Shown here piece after piece: positions 657-11,587 of a stretch of 11,587 bases of DNA (position 1 is its first letter; each line of letters opens with the position of its first letter). The stretch covers positions 3,511-15,097 of the forward strand of contig DHIR01000100.1 of NCBI GenBank assembly GCA_002403905.1, given 5' to 3'. The notes under the pieces are model-generated. The model had not been told where the DNA came from. It did not search any database and saw only the letters and a list, made by a program, of their open reading frames with translations. The DNA comes from Mucilaginibacter sp. UBA4741 (GTDB taxonomy: Bacteria; Bacteroidota; Bacteroidia; Sphingobacteriales; Sphingobacteriaceae). A program made the position numbers and the translations under genes.

Positions 657-2000
657 TTACTTGCCTTTAGGCGCGCTATCCGTACGGAATGGCGACGCAG
701 GCAGGTCATCCTCGTTGTAAAGGTTTACATCGGGTACATTTGCCCAACCGTATCTTACAGCCGTAGGTGCAGTAACGCCAGTACCAGAAACAACTATTTG
801 ATTGCCGTTTATCACCGCTTTTGCAGGTACAAAATTATTATCGGCTCCGGCTATAGTAAAGCCTTTAAGGGTGTCGCCTTTGGCAACTAATTTTTTAGCG
901 TGTGTAAAGGATAATATAGCTTTTGAACCATCAAACTTTACCGCATCATATATAGGGCCTGAGTATTCTACTTTTTCTTTATAAGCCAATGCCAAAGCAG
1001 CCCTGGAAAGACGATCGCCTACAGGTTGTTTTAACGTTGGGTGAATGTTTTCGGCATTACCACAATCAACTGTAACTGCCATTGCTGTATTAGGCGTGTG
1101 TTCCATTGTGTATAGCTGTGCTTCTCTTATTTCAGGACTCATGCCTTTGTAAGGGGCTATCTGCACAAACAGGAAAGGGAAATCACCTTGTCCCCAGGCT
1201 TTGCGCCAATCGGTAATTAAAAGGTTAAACAATGTTTTGTATTGTTCACCTCTTGAGCTATTAGCCTCGCCCTGGTACCAGATAGTGCCTTTTATAGCGT
1301 AAGGTTGCAATGGCTTGATCATACCGGTATACAAACCGCCTGCACCACCGGATAACATTGGGTCTTGCGGAGGCGTAGGTTTTGTAGGTGGCTGGCGTTT
1401 AACTGCAGGCGCAGTAGTTGTAGCCGCAGCCTTTGCATCAGCCAGTTCCTGATTGTATTTTGCCAGGTCCTGGTTATATTTTTCCAACAGGGCAGGTTCG
1501 TCTTGTTTGTATTTTGCAAGCCTGTCAGGAAAAGTTTTAACCGAGTTGTCAAACCCGTCAGCATTTTGTTTCGTTGCCGGATTGCCGGCCATAGCTTCGT
1601 AGCTTGTCCAGAACTCGGCAGGTGTACCGCTAACTGATGAAGAGATGATACCAAAAGGTATATTCAGTTTTTTGTACAGGTCGCGGGCAAAAAGGTAGCC
1701 TACAGCCGTAAAGTTTTTTACGCTTTCAGGCGTACAAACCGCCCATGTGCTATTAATAACGGCATTATTTGTATGTGCAGGTTTGCCGGGTATATAAAAC
1801 TGCCGTGTTTTCGGATAGTTGGCATCGGCAATTTCCTGTGCACTATTGGTAACTCCGGGAAGCCTGAAAGACATGTTTGACTGTCCGCTGCATACCCAAA
1901 CTTCGCCTACCAAAATGTCATTAATGGTAAGTTTATTATCGCCGGTAATGGTCATTACAAATGGGCCGCCTGCTTTTAGTGGCTTTAGTTTAACCAGCCA
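657..2000 (-). pseudogene. Sialate O-acetylesterase-type (SASA) esterase, C-terminal catalytic fragment
   Basis: This is the catalytic part of a serine esterase of the sialate O-acetylesterase/SASA family (SGNH fold), which removes acetyl groups from sugars. Visible landmarks are the nucleophile motif CSGQSNM about 37 residues into the fragment, the WYQGEANSS block, and a C-terminal Asp-His region (DCGNAENIHP then VGDRL). A Lys/Ala/Pro-rich loop lies in the middle (about 1370-1500). Family-like sequence begins at the Trp at 1998-2000 (WLVKLKPLKAGG). The frame stays open upstream to a TTG at 2162, but those 54 residues do not resemble the family and provide no signal peptide. The first in-frame ATG (1955) is inside the conserved region. 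The missing N-terminal domain and signal peptide are at 4785-5036. I infer one gene split by about 2.8 kb. This piece alone is unlikely to be exported, though the active-site motifs are intact. Confidence 0.85.
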
Positions 2001-2016
2001 CGCTATTCGTGTAGTT

Positions 2017-2025
2017 CCCAAAGAG
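2017..2025. repeat. 9-bp direct repeat CCCAAAGAG, copy 1
   Basis: The same nine bases occur in the same orientation at 4802-4810. The two copies lie close to the two ends of the segment that separates the esterase halves, so they may be a target-site duplication or a recombination microhomology. They sit 16 and 13 bp away from the last family-like codons, so the fit is not exact. Confidence 0.4.
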
Positions 2026-2093
2026 TTATGTATAACGCGTTCATGGGAGCCAGAAAGGCAGAATAAAGTACCAATCGTTCTAAGGGAAGAAAG

Positions 2094-2195
2094 ATGGACT
2101 GCGAAATTCTTACTGAATATATAGATATTTTGCAAAACAAGGTTTATAATGCTCGGAAACAATTTAAAAAAGGAAAAAATAGCGACTATCGCTAA
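2094..2195 (+). CDS. Possible 33-residue small protein or gene remnant
   Basis: An ATG at 2094 is preceded by a purine-rich stretch (GGAAGAAAG) and opens 33 codons ending at TAA 2193-2195. The product starts MDCEILTEYIDILQNKV and ends in a Lys/Arg-rich tail. Its composition looks more protein-like than usual for a chance frame in this DNA, and it lies inside the segment that interrupts the esterase. It could be the tail of a gene carried in by the insertion. It also overlaps the dehydrogenase terminator. I recognise no family, and chance is a real possibility. Confidence 0.2.
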   Translation: MDCEILTEYIDILQNKVYNARKQFKKGKNSDYR

Positions 2196-2199
2196 AAAA
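2174..2199 (-). terminator. Rho-independent terminator of the PQQ dehydrogenase gene
   Basis: TAGCGA (2180-2185) and TCGCTA (2189-2194) form a perfect 6-bp stem with a 3-nt loop. On the minus strand it is followed by six T residues (2179-2174). It lies 12 bp past the dehydrogenase stop codon. It should keep dehydrogenase transcripts from reading into the downstream esterase fragment, which further deprives that fragment of expression. Confidence 0.8.
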
Positions 2200-2206
2200 G
2201 ATACTC

Positions 2207-4375
2207 TCAGTTGGCCGGAAGCGAAAAAGCTACATAGGCATCGCCGGAAGCTGCTCCCTTCAACTTACCACCACCACAAGCAATCACCAGGTATTGTTTC
2301 CCATTAACTTGATAAACCGCGGGTGTTGCAAAACCCGCTGCGGGAAGATCTGTTTCCCATAATAGCTTCCCGGTTCTTTTATTAAAGGCCCTAAATTTGG
2401 CATCTTTGGTGGCTGCAATAAACAGCAAGCCCCCGGCAGTCACAACTGAACCACCATAATTCTCAGTACCGGCATGAATTCCCTTGGCTTTCAACTCAGG
2501 ATAATCTCCTAAGGTATCTCTCCATACTACTTTTCCTGTATTTAGATTAATAGCGTTTAGCGTACCCCATGGCGGGTTAATAGCCGGATAGCCTTCTAAA
2601 GTTCGAAACTTAATATACCCCGTTACAGAATAAGGCATCTTCAGATAGGAATCTTTCGGCTTAGCATTGTTTACATATAACATGTTCTTTTTACCTTTTA
2701 GGTTAAGGATAAAGGAGGCCAAAGCCGTTCTTTCACTCGTGCTCAACTGGTTAAAAGCAGGCATCATTCTTCTGCCCGAAGCGAGCAACTGCGTGAATGC
2801 AGCTTCGTTATATTTGGTATTAATGCCGACCAGCGAGGGATAGTTGCCGCCACCCTCCCGTCTTTCACCATGACAGCCCATGCAATTGGAACGGTATAAA
2901 AACATACCTGCCTCTAAATTTGTCTGTTTTAGGGAACTGTTTTCTCCATTATTTATATCTACCATAGTAATTACCCACGGAACTTCATTCGCATTCACAT
3001 ATAGTAAGCCTGTTTGAGGATCAAAGGCGGGGCCACCCCATTCTGCCCCACCATCTAAACCGGGTAACATCAAAGTACCTTTTTTAGACGGTGGGGCATA
3101 AAAGCCTTTTTTATAAGTAAGGAACTTTTTCTTAATGTCGCGGTAGGATGAATCAGAAACGTACTTATTCAAATCAGCCTCTGTAAAAGTCTGACGTGCA
3201 AAAGGCTTATAAAATGAGGGCAATGGTTGTGTCTTTGATAGTTTTTCTCCTACTAATTCTGATTGATATGGTACCGGGGTCTCCATAATCGGGTAAATAG
3301 GTTTACCTGTTGCCCGGTTCAACAAAAAAATTAACCCACTCTTGGTAAGCTGGACTACTGCTTCTATTTTCTTTCCATGTTTTAAAATAGTTACCAAAAC
3401 CGGTGCAGTGGGTGGGTCCCGGTCCCATACATCATGGTGAACAGTCTGAAAATGCCATACTCGTTTGCCAGTGGCTGCATTCAATGCCAGAACGCAATTG
3501 GCAAATAGATTATTTCCTTTTCGTTTGCCGCCGTAAAAATCATAAGAAGCAGAACCAATCTGCGCAAATACCATGCCTTTGGCTGTATCCAGACTAAAGC
3601 CAGCCCAAGCATTAACCCCACCGGCATGCTTGTAAGATTCCTTGTCGTCCCATGATTCGTAGCCAGTTTCACCCGGATAAGGGATGGTGTGAAAGATCCA
3701 TCTTATTGTACCTGTATGTACATCATAGGCCCTGATATGTCCCGGCGCGGCTCCGGCCTCTTCGGCTACGCGTGTGCCCAAGATCAGGAGATCCTTGTAG
3801 ATCACTCCGGGAGTAGTAGATGTAATAGAAAGGTTTTTCACATCTCTTCCTAGTCCATCATGTAAATTAATGGTTCCGTTATTACCAAACGAAGTAACTG
3901 GTTGACCTTCCTGTGCATCTAAACAATACAGTGTAGACCCCACAGTATAAAAAATGCGCTCATCATGTTTTCCGCTACTATAGTAGGTAACACCCCGGCA
4001 AGCGTTCATGGACTGGTTACTTTTGTATTTGCCGCCACTTAAAGGGTCAAAGACCCATTTTTTATGACCGGTTGCAGCATCAATAGCAAACAACTTTAAC
4101 TTTGGAGAAACACCGTAAAGTATATGATCAATAATAATTGGATTAGCCTCTATCTGATTGGTATCACCTGTATGATAAACCCACGCTACACGCAGATTTT
4201 TAACATTATTAGTATCAATTTGTGTGAGGGATGAATAATGGATCTTTCCATTATCACCTCCATAAACTTCCCATTGCTGGTAGGGATCAGTTTTCCTTAA
4301 AATAATAAAGGCTAAAAAAAGCGGGAACATTAAAAAAACAAAATACCATTTTTTGTTTGATCTTTTTATACTCAT
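2207..4375 (-). CDS. Membrane-anchored PQQ-dependent dehydrogenase with inserted cytochrome c domain
   Basis: This 722-residue quinoprotein belongs to the glucose/alcohol dehydrogenase beta-propeller family. It would oxidise a sugar or alcohol in the periplasm using pyrroloquinoline quinone. An N-terminal hydrophobic segment (about 11-26) after SIKRSNKK is a signal anchor. Repeated propeller motifs include ATGHKKW (101), TGTIRW (221), ATGKRVW (301) and TGKLLW (668). Family landmarks are ACRGVTYY near 125, HHDVWDRDPPTAP near 313, WGGPAFDPQTGLLYVN near 446 and the closing GGGKLKGAASGDAYVAFSLP. A c-type haem site CMGCH at 498-502, with a likely Met ligand near 537-538, sits in an extra domain of about 80 residues (about 485-565), suggesting internal electron transfer from PQQ to haem. 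The ATG start is preceded by an A/T-rich leader. No PQQ synthesis gene is visible. The gene lies between the two halves of the esterase gene. Substrate is unknown; glucose is only a guess. Confidence 0.88.
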   Translation of the reverse strand: MSIKRSNKKWYFVFLMFPLFLAFIILRKTDPYQQWEVYGGDNGKIHYSSLTQIDTNNVKNLRVAWVYHTGDTNQIEANPIIIDHILYGVSPKLKLFAIDAATGHKKWVFDPLSGGKYKSNQSMNACRGVTYYSSGKHDERIFYTVGSTLYCLDAQEGQPVTSFGNNGTINLHDGLGRDVKNLSITSTTPGVIYKDLLILGTRVAEEAGAAPGHIRAYDVHTGTIRWIFHTIPYPGETGYESWDDKESYKHAGGVNAWAGFSLDTAKGMVFAQIGSASYDFYGGKRKGNNLFANCVLALNAATGKRVWHFQTVHHDVWDRDPPTAPVLVTILKHGKKIEAVVQLTKSGLIFLLNRATGKPIYPIMETPVPYQSELVGEKLSKTQPLPSFYKPFARQTFTEADLNKYVSDSSYRDIKKKFLTYKKGFYAPPSKKGTLMLPGLDGGAEWGGPAFDPQTGLLYVNANEVPWVITMVDINNGENSSLKQTNLEAGMFLYRSNCMGCHGERREGGGNYPSLVGINTKYNEAAFTQLLASGRRMMPAFNQLSTSERTALASFILNLKGKKNMLYVNNAKPKDSYLKMPYSVTGYIKFRTLEGYPAINPPWGTLNAINLNTGKVVWRDTLGDYPELKAKGIHAGTENYGGSVVTAGGLLFIAATKDAKFRAFNKRTGKLLWETDLPAAGFATPAVYQVNGKQYLVIACGGGKLKGAASGDAYVAFSLPAN

Positions 4376-4449
4376 TTGTGCTGTTCTATATTAGTAAATA
4401 TATTTTTAATAATTTCTTATGGCCCTAATCAAATTTTAAGTTGTTTAAA

Positions 4450-4483
4450 ATGGTGGCGGCGGTTAAAAACCGCGCACCACCAT
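4450..4483. repeat. Hairpin repeat, copy 1 (ATGGTGG...CCACCAT)
   Basis: The outer stem 4450-4456 pairs with 4477-4483 (7 bp). The inner stem 4459-4464 pairs with 4468-4473 (6 bp) around a 3-A loop, with a small internal loop between the stems. A related copy lies 136 bp to the right. The two align over 32 bases with 24 identities, and all 8 differences are transitions. Confidence 0.6.
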
Positions 4484-4585
4484 TACCCCAACTAAACTAA
4501 CTTACTGTGTAAGTATTTTTGTATTATAAACATGATGGTAAGTACAATTATATTAACCTTCTCATATTTTCTAATAGCCCATTGA

Positions 4586-4617
4586 ATGGTGGTGGTGGCT
4601 GAGGACCACACACCACC
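4586..4617. repeat. Hairpin repeat, copy 2 (ATGGTGG...CACCACC)
   Basis: This is the second copy of the repeat at 4450. GGTGG/CCACC arms flank a CTGAGGA loop region. Relative to copy 1, two stem positions change on both sides (C-G to T-A), which keeps the pairing. It is the less perfect hairpin of the two. Confidence 0.5.
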
Positions 4618-4784
4618 GACCCCTACCAATTATTTACAACTGCTTATGGGACATGCAGCGGGGGTGGTTTTCAATTAAAGGCTTTTTTGTTTTTTTATTA
4701 ATTATCATAAAAAATGCATTATCAACTGTATTCATATTTGGAAGTCCCTCAAAGTCACCTAACCCCCCAAAAAATTAAACTATT

Positions 4785-5036
4785 TTAATATTTGTAAGAC
4801 ACCCAAAGAGGGTAAATGGGTGGTGCGCTGGCAACAGTACTGATTTTTTGGCCGGCAAAATCAACGGTAACCTTTTCGCCATCACGGGCAGTGCCCCAAA
4901 CAGGTACGGCTATGTTGCGCTGCAGTACGGCGTGGTCGCTAAATAAACTGTTGGGTACCACATCGGCACTTGCAAAAAGCGAGTCGAACGAAAATGCCGC
5001 CAACGCTAATAATTTAAGAAAACTTTTTTTATTCAG
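4785..5036 (-). pseudogene. Sialate O-acetylesterase-type esterase, N-terminal fragment with signal peptide
   Basis: This is the missing front end of the esterase at 657-2000. Read from 5036 it gives a signal peptide (NKKSFLKLLALAAF then a FASA cleavage site) and the typical N-terminal beta domain of Bacteroidetes SASA esterases (VVPNSLFSDHAVLQRNIAVP, VWGTA, VTVDFAGQK). Family similarity stops at the Ala codon 4826-4824 (STVASA). The next 12 codons are unrelated and end at TAA 4787-4785. The expected continuation (DGKW-LVKLKP) resumes at 2000. The start is also odd: the codon in the natural position (5036-5034, before NKKS) is CTG, next to ATT, with no in-frame ATG; a TTG at 5003 would cut the signal peptide. 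The start may be decayed or non-canonical. The fragment lacks all catalytic residues, so it should be non-functional. Confidence 0.85.
4802..4810. repeat. 9-bp direct repeat CCCAAAGAG, copy 2
   Basis: This is identical to 2017-2025 and in the same orientation. It lies 13 bp inside the last family-like codon of the esterase N-terminal fragment. It is also the left part of a small inverted motif, CACCCA (4800-4805 region) with TGGGTG (4817-4822). Confidence 0.4.
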
Positions 5037-5300
5037 AATGAGATTTTATGTGTTTTTAGAGCTAATATATTGGTATACAATTATCCTGTTTTTTTGCCAA
5101 ATCCTTATGTACTATATTCTCATTTTTATGTACAATGGCCTGTTAGTCTGCCGGTAAATTGTATAATGCCACTCAAAAATCTAAAATATTGCTTTTACGC
5201 AATTGTTATTCTTTGAAATTATAGTGCACTACAATGTAATTACAGTACAACGCAATAAGCATGCTTGTAGATACTTTTGACCTATAAGCCATTAACAATT
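5037..5300. promoter_or_regulatory. Divergent intergenic control region of the esterase and the GH130 operon
   Basis: The 264 bp between the divergent genes are AT-rich and carry no gene. They hold a perfect 10-bp palindrome TGTAATTACA (5235-5244) inside the larger near-symmetrical ACAATGTAATTACAGT, which is a possible operator. A GTGCAC hexamer lies just to its left (5224-5229). The palindrome is about 30 bp upstream of the candidate -7 box, which would suit a repressor or activator. Confidence 0.4.
5272..5279 (+). promoter_or_regulatory. Candidate Bacteroidetes -7 box TACTTTTG
   Basis: The sequence fits the Bacteroidetes sigma-ABfr consensus TAnnTTTG exactly. Transcription would begin close to 5286, leaving a leader of about 15 nt before the ATG at 5301. 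No TTG is visible at the usual distance for the -33 element, so only half of the promoter is supported. Confidence 0.35.
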
Positions 5301-6386
5301 ATGAGTACTATTCCCGGGCCAATAACCACGCAAGGCTTAAATGAAAGCCAGGCGCAAAGGTTTATACAAAACCCTATACTAACACCAAAACAAATTATGC
5401 CCTCAAGCCCCGATATGGTGATTGAGTGTTTGCTTAACCCCGGCGCGTTTACCTTTAAAGGGAAGATCGGCCTGTTGCTTAGGGTTGCCGAGCGCCCGGT
5501 ACAATTAGAAGGCACTATTACCTGCCCGATATTTGATGAAGCCGGAAGCCTTAAAATATTATCCTTTAATCATTCTGACCCGGATCTAGATTTGTCAGAC
5601 GCCAGGCTTATCGCGCACCAGGGAATTACTTATTTATCAACCATATCGCATTTACGTTTAGTATGGTCTGATGATGGCGTAAACTTCTATGAACCTGAAA
5701 CACCATTGATATTAAGAGGTAAAGGTAAACTGGAAACCTTTGGCATTGAAGATTGCCGGGTAGCTTTTATTGATGGCCGTTATTATTTAACCTATACACA
5801 AGTATCAGAAAACGGTGTAGGTGTGGGGATGATGAGCACCGACGACTGGGTGACTATGCAATCGCACGGTATGATCATTCCTCCGCATAATAAAGATTGC
5901 GCCCTGTTTGAAGAGAAAATAAATGGGTTGTATTACTGTCTGCACCGCCCAAGTGGGGTTGATTTAGGAGGCAATTTTATATGGTTAGCTTCATCGCCTG
6001 ACCTGGTGAATTGGGGTAATCACACCTGTATAGCACGCACCCGCCCGGGTATGTGGGACGGAACCCGCATTGGCGCCGGCTGCTCGCCCATTAAAACAGC
6101 AGAAGGCTGGCTGGAAATTTATCACGGTGCTACATCGAACCACCGGTATTGTTTAGGCGCGCTGCTGCTTGACCTGAATGATCCATCCAAAGTTATTGCG
6201 CGTTCACAAACCCCGATCATGCAGCCGCAGGAGTTGTATGAAACACAAGGCTTTTTTGGCGAAGTGATATTTACCAACGGCCATATTGTTAATGGCGACC
6301 AACTCACCGTTTATTACGGCGCTGCTGATGAAGTGATCTGCGCGGCTCAATTCTCTACCAGCCAGATCTTGGCCTCCTTAAAATAA
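5301..6386 (+). CDS. Glycoside hydrolase family 130 enzyme (beta-mannoside phosphorylase or hydrolase)
   Basis: This 361-residue protein is a five-bladed beta-propeller enzyme of family GH130, whose members phosphorolyse or hydrolyse beta-mannosides. Family landmarks are NPGAFTFKGKIGLLLRV (46-62), the GIEDCR motif (148-153) with the catalytic Asp at 151, TRIGAGCSPIKTAEGWLEIYHGA near 255-275, and YYGAADEVICAA near the end. There is no signal peptide, so it acts in the cytoplasm, as expected for a phosphorylase. The ATG at 5301 is preferred; a TTG at 5277 would add eight residues and overlap the candidate promoter. It leads the operon, with 25 bp to the MFS gene. The neighbours suggest Man-beta-1,4-GlcNAc from N-glycan cores as substrate, as for BT1033, but beta-1,2-mannosides or mannosyl-glucose cannot be excluded. 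Confidence 0.88.
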   Translation: MSTIPGPITTQGLNESQAQRFIQNPILTPKQIMPSSPDMVIECLLNPGAFTFKGKIGLLLRVAERPVQLEGTITCPIFDEAGSLKILSFNHSDPDLDLSDARLIAHQGITYLSTISHLRLVWSDDGVNFYEPETPLILRGKGKLETFGIEDCRVAFIDGRYYLTYTQVSENGVGVGMMSTDDWVTMQSHGMIIPPHNKDCALFEEKINGLYYCLHRPSGVDLGGNFIWLASSPDLVNWGNHTCIARTRPGMWDGTRIGAGCSPIKTAEGWLEIYHGATSNHRYCLGALLLDLNDPSKVIARSQTPIMQPQELYETQGFFGEVIFTNGHIVNGDQLTVYYGAADEVICAAQFSTSQILASLK

Positions 6387-6411
6387 AGATATTTAACCAT
6401 CAAAGCACAAA

Positions 6412-7683
6412 ATGAAAAGTTTAACCAACGAGTTTAACCTGTTTAAAAGTCATCCGCGTAATATGCGCATATTGCTGATGACCAATTTAGTGTATGCGTT
6501 TGTGCTGCCGGTAATTGAGGTTTTTGTAGCAGCTTATATTATGCGTAATTCAGAATCTTTGGCAAAAGTGGTGATTTACCAGCTAACCGTATACTGTGGT
6601 ATACCCATAACATTTTTGATCAATGGCTTTTTGCTGAACAGGGTAAAATTATCCAGGTTATATGCCTTCGGGATGCTGCTTAGCGGTGTATCCATGATGA
6701 TAATGACCTCACTTCACGGGCTTGACAATACCGGGATCGCTATTGCCGGTTTAATTATGGGCTGTTCTTTCGGCTTTTTTTGGGCAAGCCGTGATTTTTT
6801 AGTTATAGTGACCACCAATGATGCAAACCGCAATTATTATTACGGATTAGAAACATTTTTTTATACCCTTACTTATGTATTGGTGCCGGTTTGTATTGGC
6901 TGGTTTATTGAAATTTCGGGTAATTTAAAGTGGTTTAAAAATATCAACTTCGCTTACCAGTTGGTAACGGTTTTTATGATCGTGCTTACAATGTACTCAT
7001 CTTACATTATATCAAAAGGTAAGTTTGATAAGCCGGTACAACCCAAGTTCCTATATTTAAAGTTCCATAAAATCTGGTATGAAATGCTGGGTTTAGCCAC
7101 CTTAAAAGGATTAGTACAAGGCTTTATAGTAACCGCACCAGCTATGCTGGTTATGAAACTGGTTGGGCACGAGGGAGCATTGGGTACCATACAAAGCAGC
7201 GGGGCAATCCTGTCGGCATTTATTATGTACCTGATAGGGCGCAACAGTAAGCCAAAGCACAGGTTAATTATCTTTTCATTCGGTTTGATACTGTTTGCTT
7301 TTGGCGCTTTGTTTAATTCACTGCTGTTTGATGCCGCATCTGTTTTTGTATTTATGCTTTGCCTGCTGTTGGCCAAGCCTTTACTGGACATTGCCTACTT
7401 CCCTATACAAATGAAAGTGATTGATTACCTTTCTGTTTTAGAGAACAGAAATCAATACGCTTACTTTTTTAACCATGAAATAGGGTTGTTTGCCGGGCGA
7501 TTATTAGGCTGCGGTTTATTTATTTTACTGGCTTTAGATGTATCAGACGTTGTGGCCTTAAAGTACGCGTTGCCTATAGTGGGAGTATTGCAGGTAATAT
7601 CAATTTTTGTGGCTAAGCATATACTTAAACAAATTCCTGAAACAGAGCATATCCCCGAGGTTGATGTAATACCTCATGTTTAA
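6412..7683 (+). CDS. MFS transporter, probable oligosaccharide importer
   Basis: This 423-residue protein has about 12 hydrophobic segments, roughly at residues 19-43, 51-74, 83-102, 107-127, 147-166, 177-200, 222-243, 252-271, 279-297, 300-320, 355-375 and 378-400. A hydrophilic loop in the middle (about 201-220, KGKFDKPVQPK) splits the two halves in the usual 6+6 major facilitator pattern. The N-terminus is cytoplasmic and basic, and the C-terminal tail is acidic (ETEHIPEVD). Its place directly between the GH130 gene and the secreted FAD enzyme suggests inner-membrane uptake of the disaccharide that GH130 splits. It is only 9 bp from the next ATG, so translational coupling is likely. The substrate cannot be read from the sequence, and a sugar or uronate is a guess from context. 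Confidence 0.82.
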   Translation: MKSLTNEFNLFKSHPRNMRILLMTNLVYAFVLPVIEVFVAAYIMRNSESLAKVVIYQLTVYCGIPITFLINGFLLNRVKLSRLYAFGMLLSGVSMMIMTSLHGLDNTGIAIAGLIMGCSFGFFWASRDFLVIVTTNDANRNYYYGLETFFYTLTYVLVPVCIGWFIEISGNLKWFKNINFAYQLVTVFMIVLTMYSSYIISKGKFDKPVQPKFLYLKFHKIWYEMLGLATLKGLVQGFIVTAPAMLVMKLVGHEGALGTIQSSGAILSAFIMYLIGRNSKPKHRLIIFSFGLILFAFGALFNSLLFDAASVFVFMLCLLLAKPLLDIAYFPIQMKVIDYLSVLENRNQYAYFFNHEIGLFAGRLLGCGLFILLALDVSDVVALKYALPIVGVLQVISIFVAKHILKQIPETEHIPEVDVIPHV

Positions 7684-7692
7684 TTGTTAAGT

Positions 7693-9558
7693 ATGATAAA
7701 AAAGATAATTATAGTTTTAATGCTGTTCTGCATTGGCGCAGGTGCCAATGCTCAATACAACCTGGTTATTGTAGGTGGTAACCCGGGAGGCATTATGGCA
7801 GCAATTGCTGCTGCAAAGCTGGGTAAATCATCGGTGATATTAGAACGGACTACGCATATAGGCGGCCTGCCTGCCAATGGTTTGGGCGCGACAGATATTG
7901 CCACACGGGGCGCTACAACCGGCCTGTTTACAGAATTTGTAGGGCGGGTTAAGGCTTACTATATTAAAAAATATGGCGAGCACAGTGAGCAGGTAAAAAT
8001 GTGCAGTAATGGTTATCACTTTGAATCATCAGTAGCGGAAGCGATTTTTGAGCAAATGCTTGCCGAATACAAAAACAAAATTACCGTGCTTAAAATGCGT
8101 CAGTTTGATGCAGAGGATGAAAACATCAGCATGACAAATAATCAAATTAAAAGCATTAAGATATTAAACCGGATAACTCGTAAAGCAGAAGAATACAGAG
8201 GAGATGTTTTTATTGATGCCACTTACGAGGGCGATCTGGGAGCTGCAGCAAAGGTGCCATTTCGCGCGGGCCGTGAAGGTAAGGATGAGTTTAATGAACC
8301 AGGCGCAGGCAGGGTATATAAATATTGGGCAGGGCCCGAAGGTGCAGGCAGCACTTTTCAGAAAGATAACGCTATACAGGCCTACAATTATCGCCTGTGT
8401 TTAACTGATGACCCGGCAAACCGGGTAACGGTGACTAAACCTTCCGTTTATAATCGTGAAGAGTATACCTCTATTATTGAAGATATATGGACAGGTATGA
8501 ATACCGGCGTTAAAATGATGCATGTAACCCCGCAAATGCTGGAGGCTAACCGTAAAAATATTCAGCAGGGAAATGCTACCAATATTCCAGGTGATCAATG
8601 GGGGATAGCTAAGATAAGCAGTATGGTACCGTTGCCTAATCATAAGGCCGATGGTAACAATCAACACATGGCTTTTATATCAACAGATTTACCTGAAGAG
8701 AACTGGCCATGGCCAACCTCGGAGTGGGATTGGCGCGATAAATTTGCCGAAAGATTGAAGAATTACACTTTAGGCCTTATTTATTTTATCCAAAATGATG
8801 CAGCTTTACCGGCGAATTTTAAGGCAGTAGCTAATAAATGGGGACTGGCTAAGGATGAATATACCGACAATGGTAACTTTCCAAGGCAGGTTTACATCCG
8901 TGAGGGACGCAGGTTTGAGGGGCAATACTTTTTTACCGCTAATGATGCGTTGGCTAAGGTAAAAGGCGGGCGCCCACCAGTTCATTCAAACAGTGTAACC
9001 GCGAGCCATTATGCGTTAGACTCGCATGCTGTCCGCAAGCGCGAACCTGGCCGGGTTCACCTGGATGGATTTATCAGTTATGAGACACAGGTATATACGG
9101 TTCCTTTTGGCGTGATAGTCCCTAAAAAAATTAAAAATCTGCTACTACCGGTTCCTGTTTCGGGTAGCCACATCGGTTTTTCAACCATTCGTATGGAACC
9201 CTGCTGGATGGCTTTGGGCCAGGCGGCAGGTGCAGCAGCATCGTTAGCAATTAATGGGAAGGTTGATATTCAAAACATCAACCTTAAAAACCTGCAGGAT
9301 GTATTGCTGAGCCAAAAAGCTACCCTGATATACTATCAGGATGCCAAGCCCGAAGATCCTGATTTTAAAATGATCCAATACATGGGCTTGCGCGGATATC
9401 TACCCGGCTGGAAAGCAATGTTAGCCGAACCGGCTACTGCTGAAACCATTACTGCATGGGAACATTTATCAGGGCTGAAAGTGACATCATCAGCCAACAA
9501 AAGAACCAGGGGGGATGTTTTAATGAACTTATATAGCCGGTTAAATAAAAAATATTAA
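7693..9558 (+). CDS. Secreted FAD-dependent oxidoreductase (FAD_oxidored, PF12831 type)
   Basis: This 621-residue protein begins with a signal peptide (MIKKIIIVLMLFCIGAGANA, cleaved before Gln21). A dinucleotide-binding fold follows at once (VIVGGNPGG, 25-33, with the acidic Glu51 closing the motif) and then GGLPANGLGATD. IDATYEGDLGAAA in the middle and RMEPCWMALGQAAGAAASLA near the C-terminus are typical of PF12831 flavoproteins, which are common in Bacteroidetes polysaccharide loci but mostly of unknown substrate. The ATG at 7693 is preferred over the TTG at 7684, which sits right behind the MFS stop codon. It would bind FAD in the periplasm or after export, which is unusual since the cofactor must be loaded before or during export. 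Its role beside GH92 and GH130 enzymes is unknown; oxidation of a sugar or a capped glycan end is one guess. Confidence 0.85.
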   Translation: MIKKIIIVLMLFCIGAGANAQYNLVIVGGNPGGIMAAIAAAKLGKSSVILERTTHIGGLPANGLGATDIATRGATTGLFTEFVGRVKAYYIKKYGEHSEQVKMCSNGYHFESSVAEAIFEQMLAEYKNKITVLKMRQFDAEDENISMTNNQIKSIKILNRITRKAEEYRGDVFIDATYEGDLGAAAKVPFRAGREGKDEFNEPGAGRVYKYWAGPEGAGSTFQKDNAIQAYNYRLCLTDDPANRVTVTKPSVYNREEYTSIIEDIWTGMNTGVKMMHVTPQMLEANRKNIQQGNATNIPGDQWGIAKISSMVPLPNHKADGNNQHMAFISTDLPEENWPWPTSEWDWRDKFAERLKNYTLGLIYFIQNDAALPANFKAVANKWGLAKDEYTDNGNFPRQVYIREGRRFEGQYFFTANDALAKVKGGRPPVHSNSVTASHYALDSHAVRKREPGRVHLDGFISYETQVYTVPFGVIVPKKIKNLLLPVPVSGSHIGFSTIRMEPCWMALGQAAGAAASLAINGKVDIQNINLKNLQDVLLSQKATLIYYQDAKPEDPDFKMIQYMGLRGYLPGWKAMLAEPATAETITAWEHLSGLKVTSSANKRTRGDVLMNLYSRLNKKY

Positions 9559-9633
9559 CAAGTACTATAGCATTTACTAAAGCAAATGTAATGAGGCCTC
9601 TAACTTACTTTTAAACAAATAAAGAATAAGGTT
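9559..9633 (+). other. 75-bp spacer between the FAD enzyme and the GH92 gene
   Basis: This is the widest gap within the operon. It shows no clear terminator stem or strong promoter box. AAAGAATAAGG just before the GTG is a weak purine-rich leader, as usual in this phylum. Confidence 0.4.
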
Positions 9634-11587
9634 GTGAAAAATTTTCGAGACTTTTTTAGTTCGCGGTTGATTTTGCTATTAGTGACTGCTCTTCCTTCGA
9701 GCCTATTTGGGCAGCAGAGATATGGTGACTATGTAAATCCAATGATTGGCTCAAAGGGTCAGGGCAATGTGTTTGTTGGCCCCTGCTATCCTTTTGGGAT
9801 GATAAAGCCCGGACCGGATTGTGGTAAAGGATTATCCACTAGTGGTTATTTGCCAGATATGGCTCAACCGGTAATAGGCTTTAGTCAGGTGCATTTAAGC
9901 GGTGCTGGGGGAGGAGCTAAATATGGCAATATCCAGGTAATGCCTTTTGCTGATGATATAGATGTAATAGATCAGCATTCACTACGCCAGGATGAGGAGG
10001 CTAAACTAGGTTATTATAGCGTTTTGTTAAATAAGCACCAAATCAAAGCCGAAATAACGGCTACCTCAAAAGTGTCTTTTTATAGGCTTACTTACCAGGC
10101 TGGCAGTAATAAATGTCTTAAAATTGATCCCGGCTTTTTTTTGGGTGAGCACGAAGAACCTGATTATCCTGAAGCGCAACACCTGGTAGGATCTGAAATT
10201 GAAATAATATCTGCTACTGAAGCAATGGGTTATAGCCGCGTACGCGGTGGCTGGAATAATGGAGCGGCTTATACCGCATATTTTTATGCCGAATTTGACA
10301 AACCAGTAAAAAGTTTTACCACATGGAAAAATAACAAGCTGGAGCCGGGTAAATTAAATCAAACAGACACTGGCGAAAAAACTGGCGCTCTGCTTTACTT
10401 TGGCAAAACAGGTTCAAATACGATTAAAGTAAAAATAGGTATATCTTATATCAGTGCCTTAAAGGCTAAACAAAACATTGCTATTGAAGTACCGTATTGG
10501 GATTTTGAGGGGGTGCTTAAACAAAACCAGGAAACTTGGGAAAGTAAATTGAATAGAATAGAAATTGATCCGCAGTCCACTGCAGATTATAAAACAATGT
10601 TTTATACCGCATTGTATCATACCATGCTGATGCCAGTTGATCGTACAGGCGAGAACCCTTTATGGACATCGTCCCAACCATATTATGATGATTTTGCCGC
10701 AATTTGGGATACTTACCGTTCATCAAGTCCATTATTAACTTTGATCACACCATCACGCCAAACAAGTATTGTAAACTCCTTACTTAATATTTATCAGCAT
10801 GATGGTTACCTGCCTGATGCGCGTATTGGAAATTATAATGGCCGTACTCAGGGAGGCTCAAATGCAGATGTGGTAGTAGCCGATGCCTACGTAAAAGGAC
10901 TTACGGGAATTGATTATAACCTGGCTTTAGAGGCTGTGTTGAAAGATGCAAATGTACCACCGGGGGGTAATGAAGAAAAAGAAGGACGGGGTGGTTTAAG
11001 TGATTATAATACACTGGGGTATCTGTCGTCTGATTTTGTAAGGGCAGGAAATCGTACTGTTGATTATGCTTATGATGATTATTGCATTGCCGAGTTGGCA
11101 AAAGGACTTAATAAACCGGCAGAGTATAAGAGATTTATAAAGCAGGCTGATAACTGGAAAAATTTATGGAGGCCGGATTATAAGCATCATGGTGCGTTGG
11201 GTTTTATTTTACCCAGAGATGCGAAAGGCAATTGGTTGGATAGTATTCCCTATTCAGCTACAGGTGATAAGATAAATTATTTTAAATATACTCCGCTTAC
11301 ACATGAATATCCTAAATATGCTTGCTGGTGGTGCTGCTTTTTATATGAAGGGACATCATGGGAGTATTCTTTAAGTATACCGCAAGATATACCAGAGATA
11401 GTTAAAAGGTCAGGCGGTAACAAAGCCTTTATCAACAGGATTGATACTTTATTTAAAAATGGCTATTACCAGGTAGGTAATGAACCTTCTTTTTTAACGT
11501 CATGTCTGTATCATTGGGCTGGCTGGCCAGATCTTAGCGGAATGCGGGTTCGCAAAATTATCAGTACAAACTACAATAGTTCGTTTG
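9634..11587 (+). CDS. GH92 alpha-mannosidase-like enzyme, C-terminus beyond the window
   Basis: The frame runs open from a GTG at 9634 to the window edge (651 residues). Family members are about 740-780 residues, so roughly the last 100 are missing. A signal peptide (RLILLLVTALPSSLFG, cleaved near Gln27) without a lipobox Cys points to the periplasm. GH92 enzymes are calcium-dependent exo-alpha-mannosidases. Landmarks are VNPMIGSKGQGNVFVGPCYPFGM near 35-55, GFSQVHLSG with His87, IWDTYRSSSPLL with Trp358, VDYAYDDYCIAELAKGL with Asp481-Asp482, and GNEPS with Glu617, the usual general acid. Several positions deviate: IPQD at 582-585 where VPHD is usual, AGWPDLSGMRVRKI where GxPxKTQxxVR is usual, and GAKYGN where DYGD is usual. 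GTG is chosen because it gives the complete signal peptide. It is the fourth operon gene. It probably trims an unusual alpha-mannoside, but its activity may differ. Confidence 0.85.
   Translation, partial: MKNFRDFFSSRLILLLVTALPSSLFGQQRYGDYVNPMIGSKGQGNVFVGPCYPFGMIKPGPDCGKGLSTSGYLPDMAQPVIGFSQVHLSGAGGGAKYGNIQVMPFADDIDVIDQHSLRQDEEAKLGYYSVLLNKHQIKAEITATSKVSFYRLTYQAGSNKCLKIDPGFFLGEHEEPDYPEAQHLVGSEIEIISATEAMGYSRVRGGWNNGAAYTAYFYAEFDKPVKSFTTWKNNKLEPGKLNQTDTGEKTGALLYFGKTGSNTIKVKIGISYISALKAKQNIAIEVPYWDFEGVLKQNQETWESKLNRIEIDPQSTADYKTMFYTALYHTMLMPVDRTGENPLWTSSQPYYDDFAAIWDTYRSSSPLLTLITPSRQTSIVNSLLNIYQHDGYLPDARIGNYNGRTQGGSNADVVVADAYVKGLTGIDYNLALEAVLKDANVPPGGNEEKEGRGGLSDYNTLGYLSSDFVRAGNRTVDYAYDDYCIAELAKGLNKPAEYKRFIKQADNWKNLWRPDYKHHGALGFILPRDAKGNWLDSIPYSATGDKINYFKYTPLTHEYPKYACWWCCFLYEGTSWEYSLSIPQDIPEIVKRSGGNKAFINRIDTLFKNGYYQVGNEPSFLTSCLYHWAGWPDLSGMRVRKIISTNYNSSF

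Follow-up and report, generated by a model that had tools for sequence, protein, structure and literature searches.

Pseudogenes made by acquired DNA share a simple layout, in which one gene lies in two pieces on the same strand and in order, and a near allele is uninterrupted. The locus described here is of this known kind, inactivation of a gene by inserted DNA, and is an unusually legible example of an ordinary event. The insert is neither an insertion sequence nor a prophage and consists of one complete metabolic gene and a scrap of a recombinase gene; what is new is the empty site together with recombinase debris at the edge of the insert. The interrupted gene belongs with the SASA (PF03629) sialate O-acetylesterases, represented among structures by the matches of its full-length relative P0002 (PDB 9ega, 9h4u, and 7kmm), but its N-terminal ~70 residues are detached and its usual start codon is missing. 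The inserted gene belongs with the PQQ quinohaemoprotein dehydrogenases (PF01011 plus cytochrome c; best sequence matches PDB 1yiq and 1kb0). The recombinase scrap recalls a third group: in the available portion of PMC8138268, the arm-binding domain is given as a mark of mobile-element recombinases and an IntCTnDOT subgroup is described for Bacteroidetes. We found no paper joining Mucilaginibacter with a sialate O-acetylesterase, and the portions available of the literature on pseudogenes and insertions held nothing on point.

The stretch of DNA that was analyzed, called the window below, is 11,587 nt long (G000:C253:3511-15097) and comes from a Mucilaginibacter genome of 4.07 Mb in 299 contigs that is ~80% complete. 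Its features are collected in Table 1.

Table 1. Features of the interrupted esterase locus, in window coordinates.
Feature	Position	Strand	Remarks
C-part of SASA esterase	657..2000	-	447 codons; catalytic motifs kept
Inserted segment	2001..4823		2823 bp; bounds by alignment to full-length relatives and to P0241
Tyrosine recombinase arm-binding remnant	2002..2183	+	two frames, aligned at 2020-2064 and 2070-2159
Terminator-like hairpin 3′ of dehydrogenase	2180..2194	-	weak evidence
PQQ-dependent dehydrogenase, complete	2207..4375	-	722 aa; beta-propeller with inserted cytochrome c domain
Upstream part of insert	4376..4823		448 bp, A+T-rich, no recognizable gene
N-part of SASA esterase	4824..5036	-	71 codons; signal-peptide region and start of mature protein
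GH130 phosphorylase-like gene	5277..6386	+	divergent from esterase

The two esterase pieces lie in the right order on the same (minus) strand, as the original prediction had claimed, and the boundaries that it gave hold as well. The N-part, reading LNKK...STVASA from 5036, ends at 4824, the C-part, WLVKLKP...APKGK, resumes at 2000 and runs to 657, and 2823 bp separate them. Over its length the C-part has no stop codon and matches PF03629 with 62.6 bits (cut-off 24.8). From the upstream stop down to the CTG codon at 5036, the N-part frame has no ATG, GTG, or TTG; the first TTG downstream is at 5003 and the first GTG at 4961.

Both pieces score best against one full-length protein, P0002, which is named a sialate O-acetylesterase and comes from a Mucilaginibacter metagenome-assembled genome. 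Among the 120 proteins listed, drawn from a search that scored only the 7999 candidates sharing most words, P0002 is the top-scoring match of the N-part (94.0 bits, 64% of 67 residues), by a small margin over the next at 90.9 bits; several other proteins exceed it in N-part percent identity alone, over similar or shorter stretches. It is also the top-scoring match of the C-part (655 bits, 72%; 120 proteins listed) after the window's own P0001, a 492-aa protein with three member sequences that comprises the C-part and its insert-coded extension and whose contig is listed as 5501 bp. The two fragments thus do not match different paralogs. An alignment of the pieces with nine full-length relatives put three residues, or four in the case of P0005, between S70 of the N-part and the opening W of the C-part, and the aligner placed the last N-part residue, A71, in a stray column. 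The original prediction of about three missing residues, such as DGK, was therefore right in kind, and the nearest allele has GK.

That allele was found with the 83-residue frame on the N side of the break, which matched 27 proteins of similar length, none of which contains the insert-side tail PPIYPL. The best of them, the metagenome protein P0241, is identical to the N-part at 65 of 69 residues (94%) and reads through the insertion site unbroken as STVASA, GK, and WMVKLKPIKAGGP, with only GK between the A and the W (STVASA-GK-WMVKLKP). It carries a Met in the region where the start codon of the N-part is missing. Past the site, P0241 stays in the esterase frame for only 13 residues beyond the W, and its closing residues, LCNDHYRR, match a different frame of the window at that position. 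P0241 is a near allele carrying a frameshift, whether genuine or an artifact of its 942-bp contig, and is not a proven working gene; the exit from frame reflects either an error of a short contig or a gene already broken in that lineage. Judged by its sequence, P0241 represents the empty site, and the insertion cost about two codons. The comparison with P0241 reveals no target duplication at the protein level; its junction is known as protein, and a microhomology of a few bases or a short duplication lies below that resolution.

More distant relatives are uninterrupted. The C-part is matched at E ≤ 1e-80 in 18 of 149 genus genomes (own included), with an identity of at most 46% outside the window's own gene, and at E ≤ 1e-110 in 8 of 399 family genomes (own included), where G449 and G451 come closest with 67% and 65%. 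Eight loci were opened (L172-L177, L179, and L180), covering six of the seven family relatives (G355 left out) and the genus relatives G069 and G007. In each, the esterase is one frame of 500 to 527 codons, one of the eight loci ending at a contig edge, and no match to the window's dehydrogenase is present. Among the genus and family genomes searched, with these eight loci opened, this genome alone showed the interrupted arrangement, so that the reading of one split gene survives the comparison with relatives. None of the eight loci has a GH130 match either, and an intact esterase divergent from a GH130 gene, which the original prediction had proposed to look for in relatives, was not found. 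Together, the run of P0241 through the site and the uninterrupted full-length relatives support the insertion of dehydrogenase-bearing DNA into a once-whole esterase, and we regard a real insertion into one gene as very likely.

With no usual start codon on its N-part, the esterase is presumably dead. Erosion of the C-part appears slight and gives at most a hint of relaxed constraint. Its end branch in a 40-row tree measures 0.25 versus 0.24 for P0002. Of 97 columns with at least 95% conservation, it differs in one (G124S, at a residue conserved at the 98% level), and 77 of 119 relatives differ in one or more. At columns conserved at 90% or more, it departs at 6 of 139; 25 of the 119 relatives depart as often or more, but only 1 of the 16 nearest does so as often. 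A recent split would account for this, as would weak constraint still acting on the C-part, and we favor the first. It is highly unlikely that the C-part has become an independent working gene, whether as a shortened esterase or as a new protein fused to insert-coded residues. Its frame does continue into the insert up to a TTG at 2162, with further TTG codons at 2135 and 2021, the GQSN, WYQGEAN, and DCGNAENIHP motifs of full-length relatives are kept, and its branch is no longer than that of P0002; however, it lacks the signal peptide and the first ~70 residues of the nine aligned relatives, the G124S change alters a highly conserved position, a terminator-like site follows the dehydrogenase, and the arrangement occurs in no other genome searched. 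Other SASA-domain genes, on contigs C50, C19, C258, and C270 of this genome, might cover the function of the presumably dead esterase.

The dehydrogenase in the break is one open frame that matches PF01011 with 618 bits and PF13442 and PF00034 also above cut-off; TIGR03074 is its best NCBIfam model, at 485 bits below the cut-off of 833. It has the same set of beta-propeller and cytochrome c domains as its nearest PQQ relatives, and as in these, the cytochrome c domain (residues 487-556) sits inside the propeller (35-484 and 604-688). A whole dehydrogenase gene therefore does occupy the break, as had been claimed, but the terminator ascribed to it is less firm: the hairpin at 2194-2180 is present and is weak evidence, because a scan of the region returned five terminator-like sites versus 3.6 expected from shuffles.

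Among the matches listed, the nearest dehydrogenase proteins are P0121 (73%) and P0122 (72%). The window's own protein is absent from the best 120 listed for it, which would be accounted for by a contig of P0001 that ends inside the dehydrogenase. Within the genus, a match at E ≤ 1e-100 is present in 104 of 149 genomes (own included); leaving aside the window's own gene, the best reaches 64% (G152), and the genome of the window has a second copy at 58%. In a midpoint-rooted tree of 70 rows (the window, 29 genus loci, and 40 proteins), 28 of the 29 genus dehydrogenases fall outside the 42-row branch that holds the window (support 93), with that of G152 elsewhere within it; sampling is uneven, because proteins selected as the window's nearest, all 40 of them, are set against genus loci. 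The 13-row clade of the window's dehydrogenase includes the Pedobacter-named protein P0127. From its place among these sequences, the dehydrogenase likely originated outside the lines typical of the genus. Base composition is uninformative as a mark of foreignness, the GC3 of the gene (0.37) lying within the range of other window genes (0.32-0.46). A search of plasmid DNA in distant mode returned six records, one of them a 429-bp match at 66.7% under an Emticicia PQQ dehydrogenase and the other five Sphingobium matches of 54 bp.

The dehydrogenase may be expressed. The Bacteroidetes-type promoter consensus has no full match on either strand of the window, and the stretches looked at hold two bare −7-like words, both on the plus strand. 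An Rfam scan of 1900-5300 gave no match up to E 1. When the left flank of the insert was searched against its own genome, only itself matched. At E ≤ 0.01, the noncoding flanks matched, mostly by short words, in 13 (right flank) and 46 (left flank) of the 149 genus genomes (own included). A REP-like hairpin arm upstream of the dehydrogenase proved not to be a dispersed repeat, with one exact (own) copy and one three-mismatch copy in the genome.

Weak DNA matches of the right flank pointed to L195, a locus of the same genome that encodes a full tyrosine recombinase with Arm-DNA-bind_5, Phage_int_SAM_5, and Phage_integrase domains. Searched against the window by tblastn (E 1.9e-8 for the whole window), this protein aligned at 2020-2064 (53% of 15 residues) and, in another frame, at 2073-2159 (62% of 29). 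A recombinase fragment of the genus relative G095, L202, matched 2070-2159 at 63% of 30; these two were the recombinase genes that matched among 15 loci compared by frames with the right flank. Shuffles of the flank that kept dinucleotides never scored as well (0 of 1000; best 25.0 versus 41.6 bits). Pfam gave no match up to E 10 on the remnant pieces alone, because they are too short.

The remnant is frameshifted and doubly truncated: one cut, at the esterase junction, falls about 35 codons into the recombinase, and the other lies before the dehydrogenase stop. The rest of the recombinase was not found in the left flank of the insert, nor were further pieces found within 40 kb of the contig at E ≤ 0.01. 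Against plasmid and phage records, the second piece had one match each (E 4 and E 6), which we took as chance. The original prediction saw no transposase in the break, which is literally right, but the tyrosine recombinase remnant had been missed. Like recombinases of the IntCTnDOT type, the remnant aligns with the arm-binding region of a full recombinase, that of the same genome, but it has only ~60 codons in two frames and neither a core-binding nor a catalytic domain. From the description of the subgroup in the available portion of PMC8138268, the remnant would fall in the IntCTnDOT subgroup, and we call the insert mobile-element-associated because the same portion treats the arm-binding domain as a mark of mobile-element recombinases. 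L202 is an N-terminal recombinase fragment, a 105-residue frame that ends early, and suggests that such debris is not rare in the genus.

No inverted repeats of note mark the ends of the insert, the longest inverted match being four to five bases, and none of the 17 repeat pairs of the region joins the two ends. A 9-bp direct repeat, CTCTTTGGG on the minus strand, occurs at 4802-4810 and 2017-2025, 13 to 16 bp inside both ends. Random pairs would show such a repeat in about 1% of cases with 40-bp zones and about 2% with 60-bp zones, and on one side the repeat lies within the recombinase homology. Repair bypasses to lateral transfer were reportedly described by Popa et al. in 2011. The genome encodes Ku (G000:C247:15603-16139, E 2e-46), a search that found a match in 1 of 14 control genomes. 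End joining has been reported in Bacteroidetes, according to the available portion of PMC7719229.

A recombinase cut at the junction, the loss of about two codons, and the presence of Ku are consistent with a double-strand break into which a broken fragment was joined. In the course of events that we propose, a once-whole gene for a secreted carbohydrate (sialate-type) O-acetylesterase beside the GH130/GH92 glycan-use cluster would have been divided behind codon 71 by a piece of DNA 2.8 kb long, with a whole PQQ dehydrogenase gene on it and a broken tyrosine recombinase gene at one end. The piece would derive from a degraded mobile island and would have entered a double-strand break by end joining, not by transposition or site-specific integration, leaving an esterase that is presumably dead and a dehydrogenase that may be expressed. 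Capture of mobile-element-associated DNA into the esterase gene by end joining is, on balance, probable, and the unexplained 9-bp repeat near both ends is a point against it. The further reading, that end joining of a broken fragment of a mobile island placed one metabolic gene directly inside a host gene and left both scars legible, we propose only tentatively, as a possibility somewhat short of even. The route of insertion, which the original prediction left unexplained, is partly explained by the remnant and by this proposed joining.

Two mobile-element routes compete with end joining. Using its tyrosine recombinase, an integrative element of the CTnDOT kind might have integrated into the esterase and carried the dehydrogenase as cargo, later losing most of its genes, among them most of the recombinase. 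The arm-binding remnant at one edge of the insert speaks for such an element, and the available portion of PMC8138268 assigns recombinases of this sort to mobile elements; nevertheless, this route is unlikely: with about 35 codons gone from its start and a cut at the esterase junction, the remnant does not mark an intact end of an element there, erosion would need to have halted within two codons of the esterase on both sides, and no clear core repeat is seen at the junctions. We consider it less likely still that a transposon or insertion sequence brought the dehydrogenase and lost its transposase, for example by way of the IS1182-like remnant beyond the C-part. An IS1182-like transposase frame does lie just past the left edge of the window, and the 9-bp direct repeat is near both ends of the insert, but that transposase is outside the insert, there are no inverted ends, two codons were lost rather than a target duplicated (at the protein level), and the repeat is inside the recombinase homology on one side.

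An assembly artifact, in which the dehydrogenase segment was misplaced between the halves of an intact esterase, is very improbable. The assembly of 299 contigs and 80% completeness and the existence of an uninterrupted near allele in a metagenome would allow it, but two false joins would be needed that restore the gene order with about two codons missing. Moreover, P0001, the C-part with its extension, lies on a 5501-bp contig and not on the 40,996-bp contig of the window, a second occurrence that may not be independent, and the missing usual start codon of the N-part is likewise in keeping with a disused gene.

The individual genes of the locus are ordinary. If end-joining capture is correct, a single event removed an esterase and brought in an oxidase, with the target, the empty-site allele, and the mobile-element debris all readable, and the locus would be a natural snapshot of gene gain without homology in a member of the Bacteroidetes that encodes Ku. 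It would agree with the idea that metabolic genes need neither homology nor an intact transposase to enter a genome. The locus also holds a warning for annotation, in that the "esterase" called at 657-2162 is a fragment whose front residues are coded by the insert.

The neighborhood is one of glycan use, in which a SASA-type esterase fits. Divergent from the N-part are genes for GH130, MFS, FAD-oxidoreductase, and GH92 proteins, and farther along the contig are a GDSL lipase-like gene, an alpha-L-fucosidase, and GH2-type and GH97-type enzymes. On the other side, 3′ of the C-part, the IS1182-like transposase frame (L163:2120-3025) matches NF033551 with 166 bits, below the cut-off of 270; the transposase seems to be split over two frames, the second of which would reach positions 1-96 of the window. 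The GH130, MFS, and FAD-oxidoreductase genes stand head to tail with small gaps and are followed by GH92 (5277-11586), a run that is probably one glycan-use operon. The best NCBIfam model for its GH130 gene, BtaManbiosPhlase, scores below cut-off.
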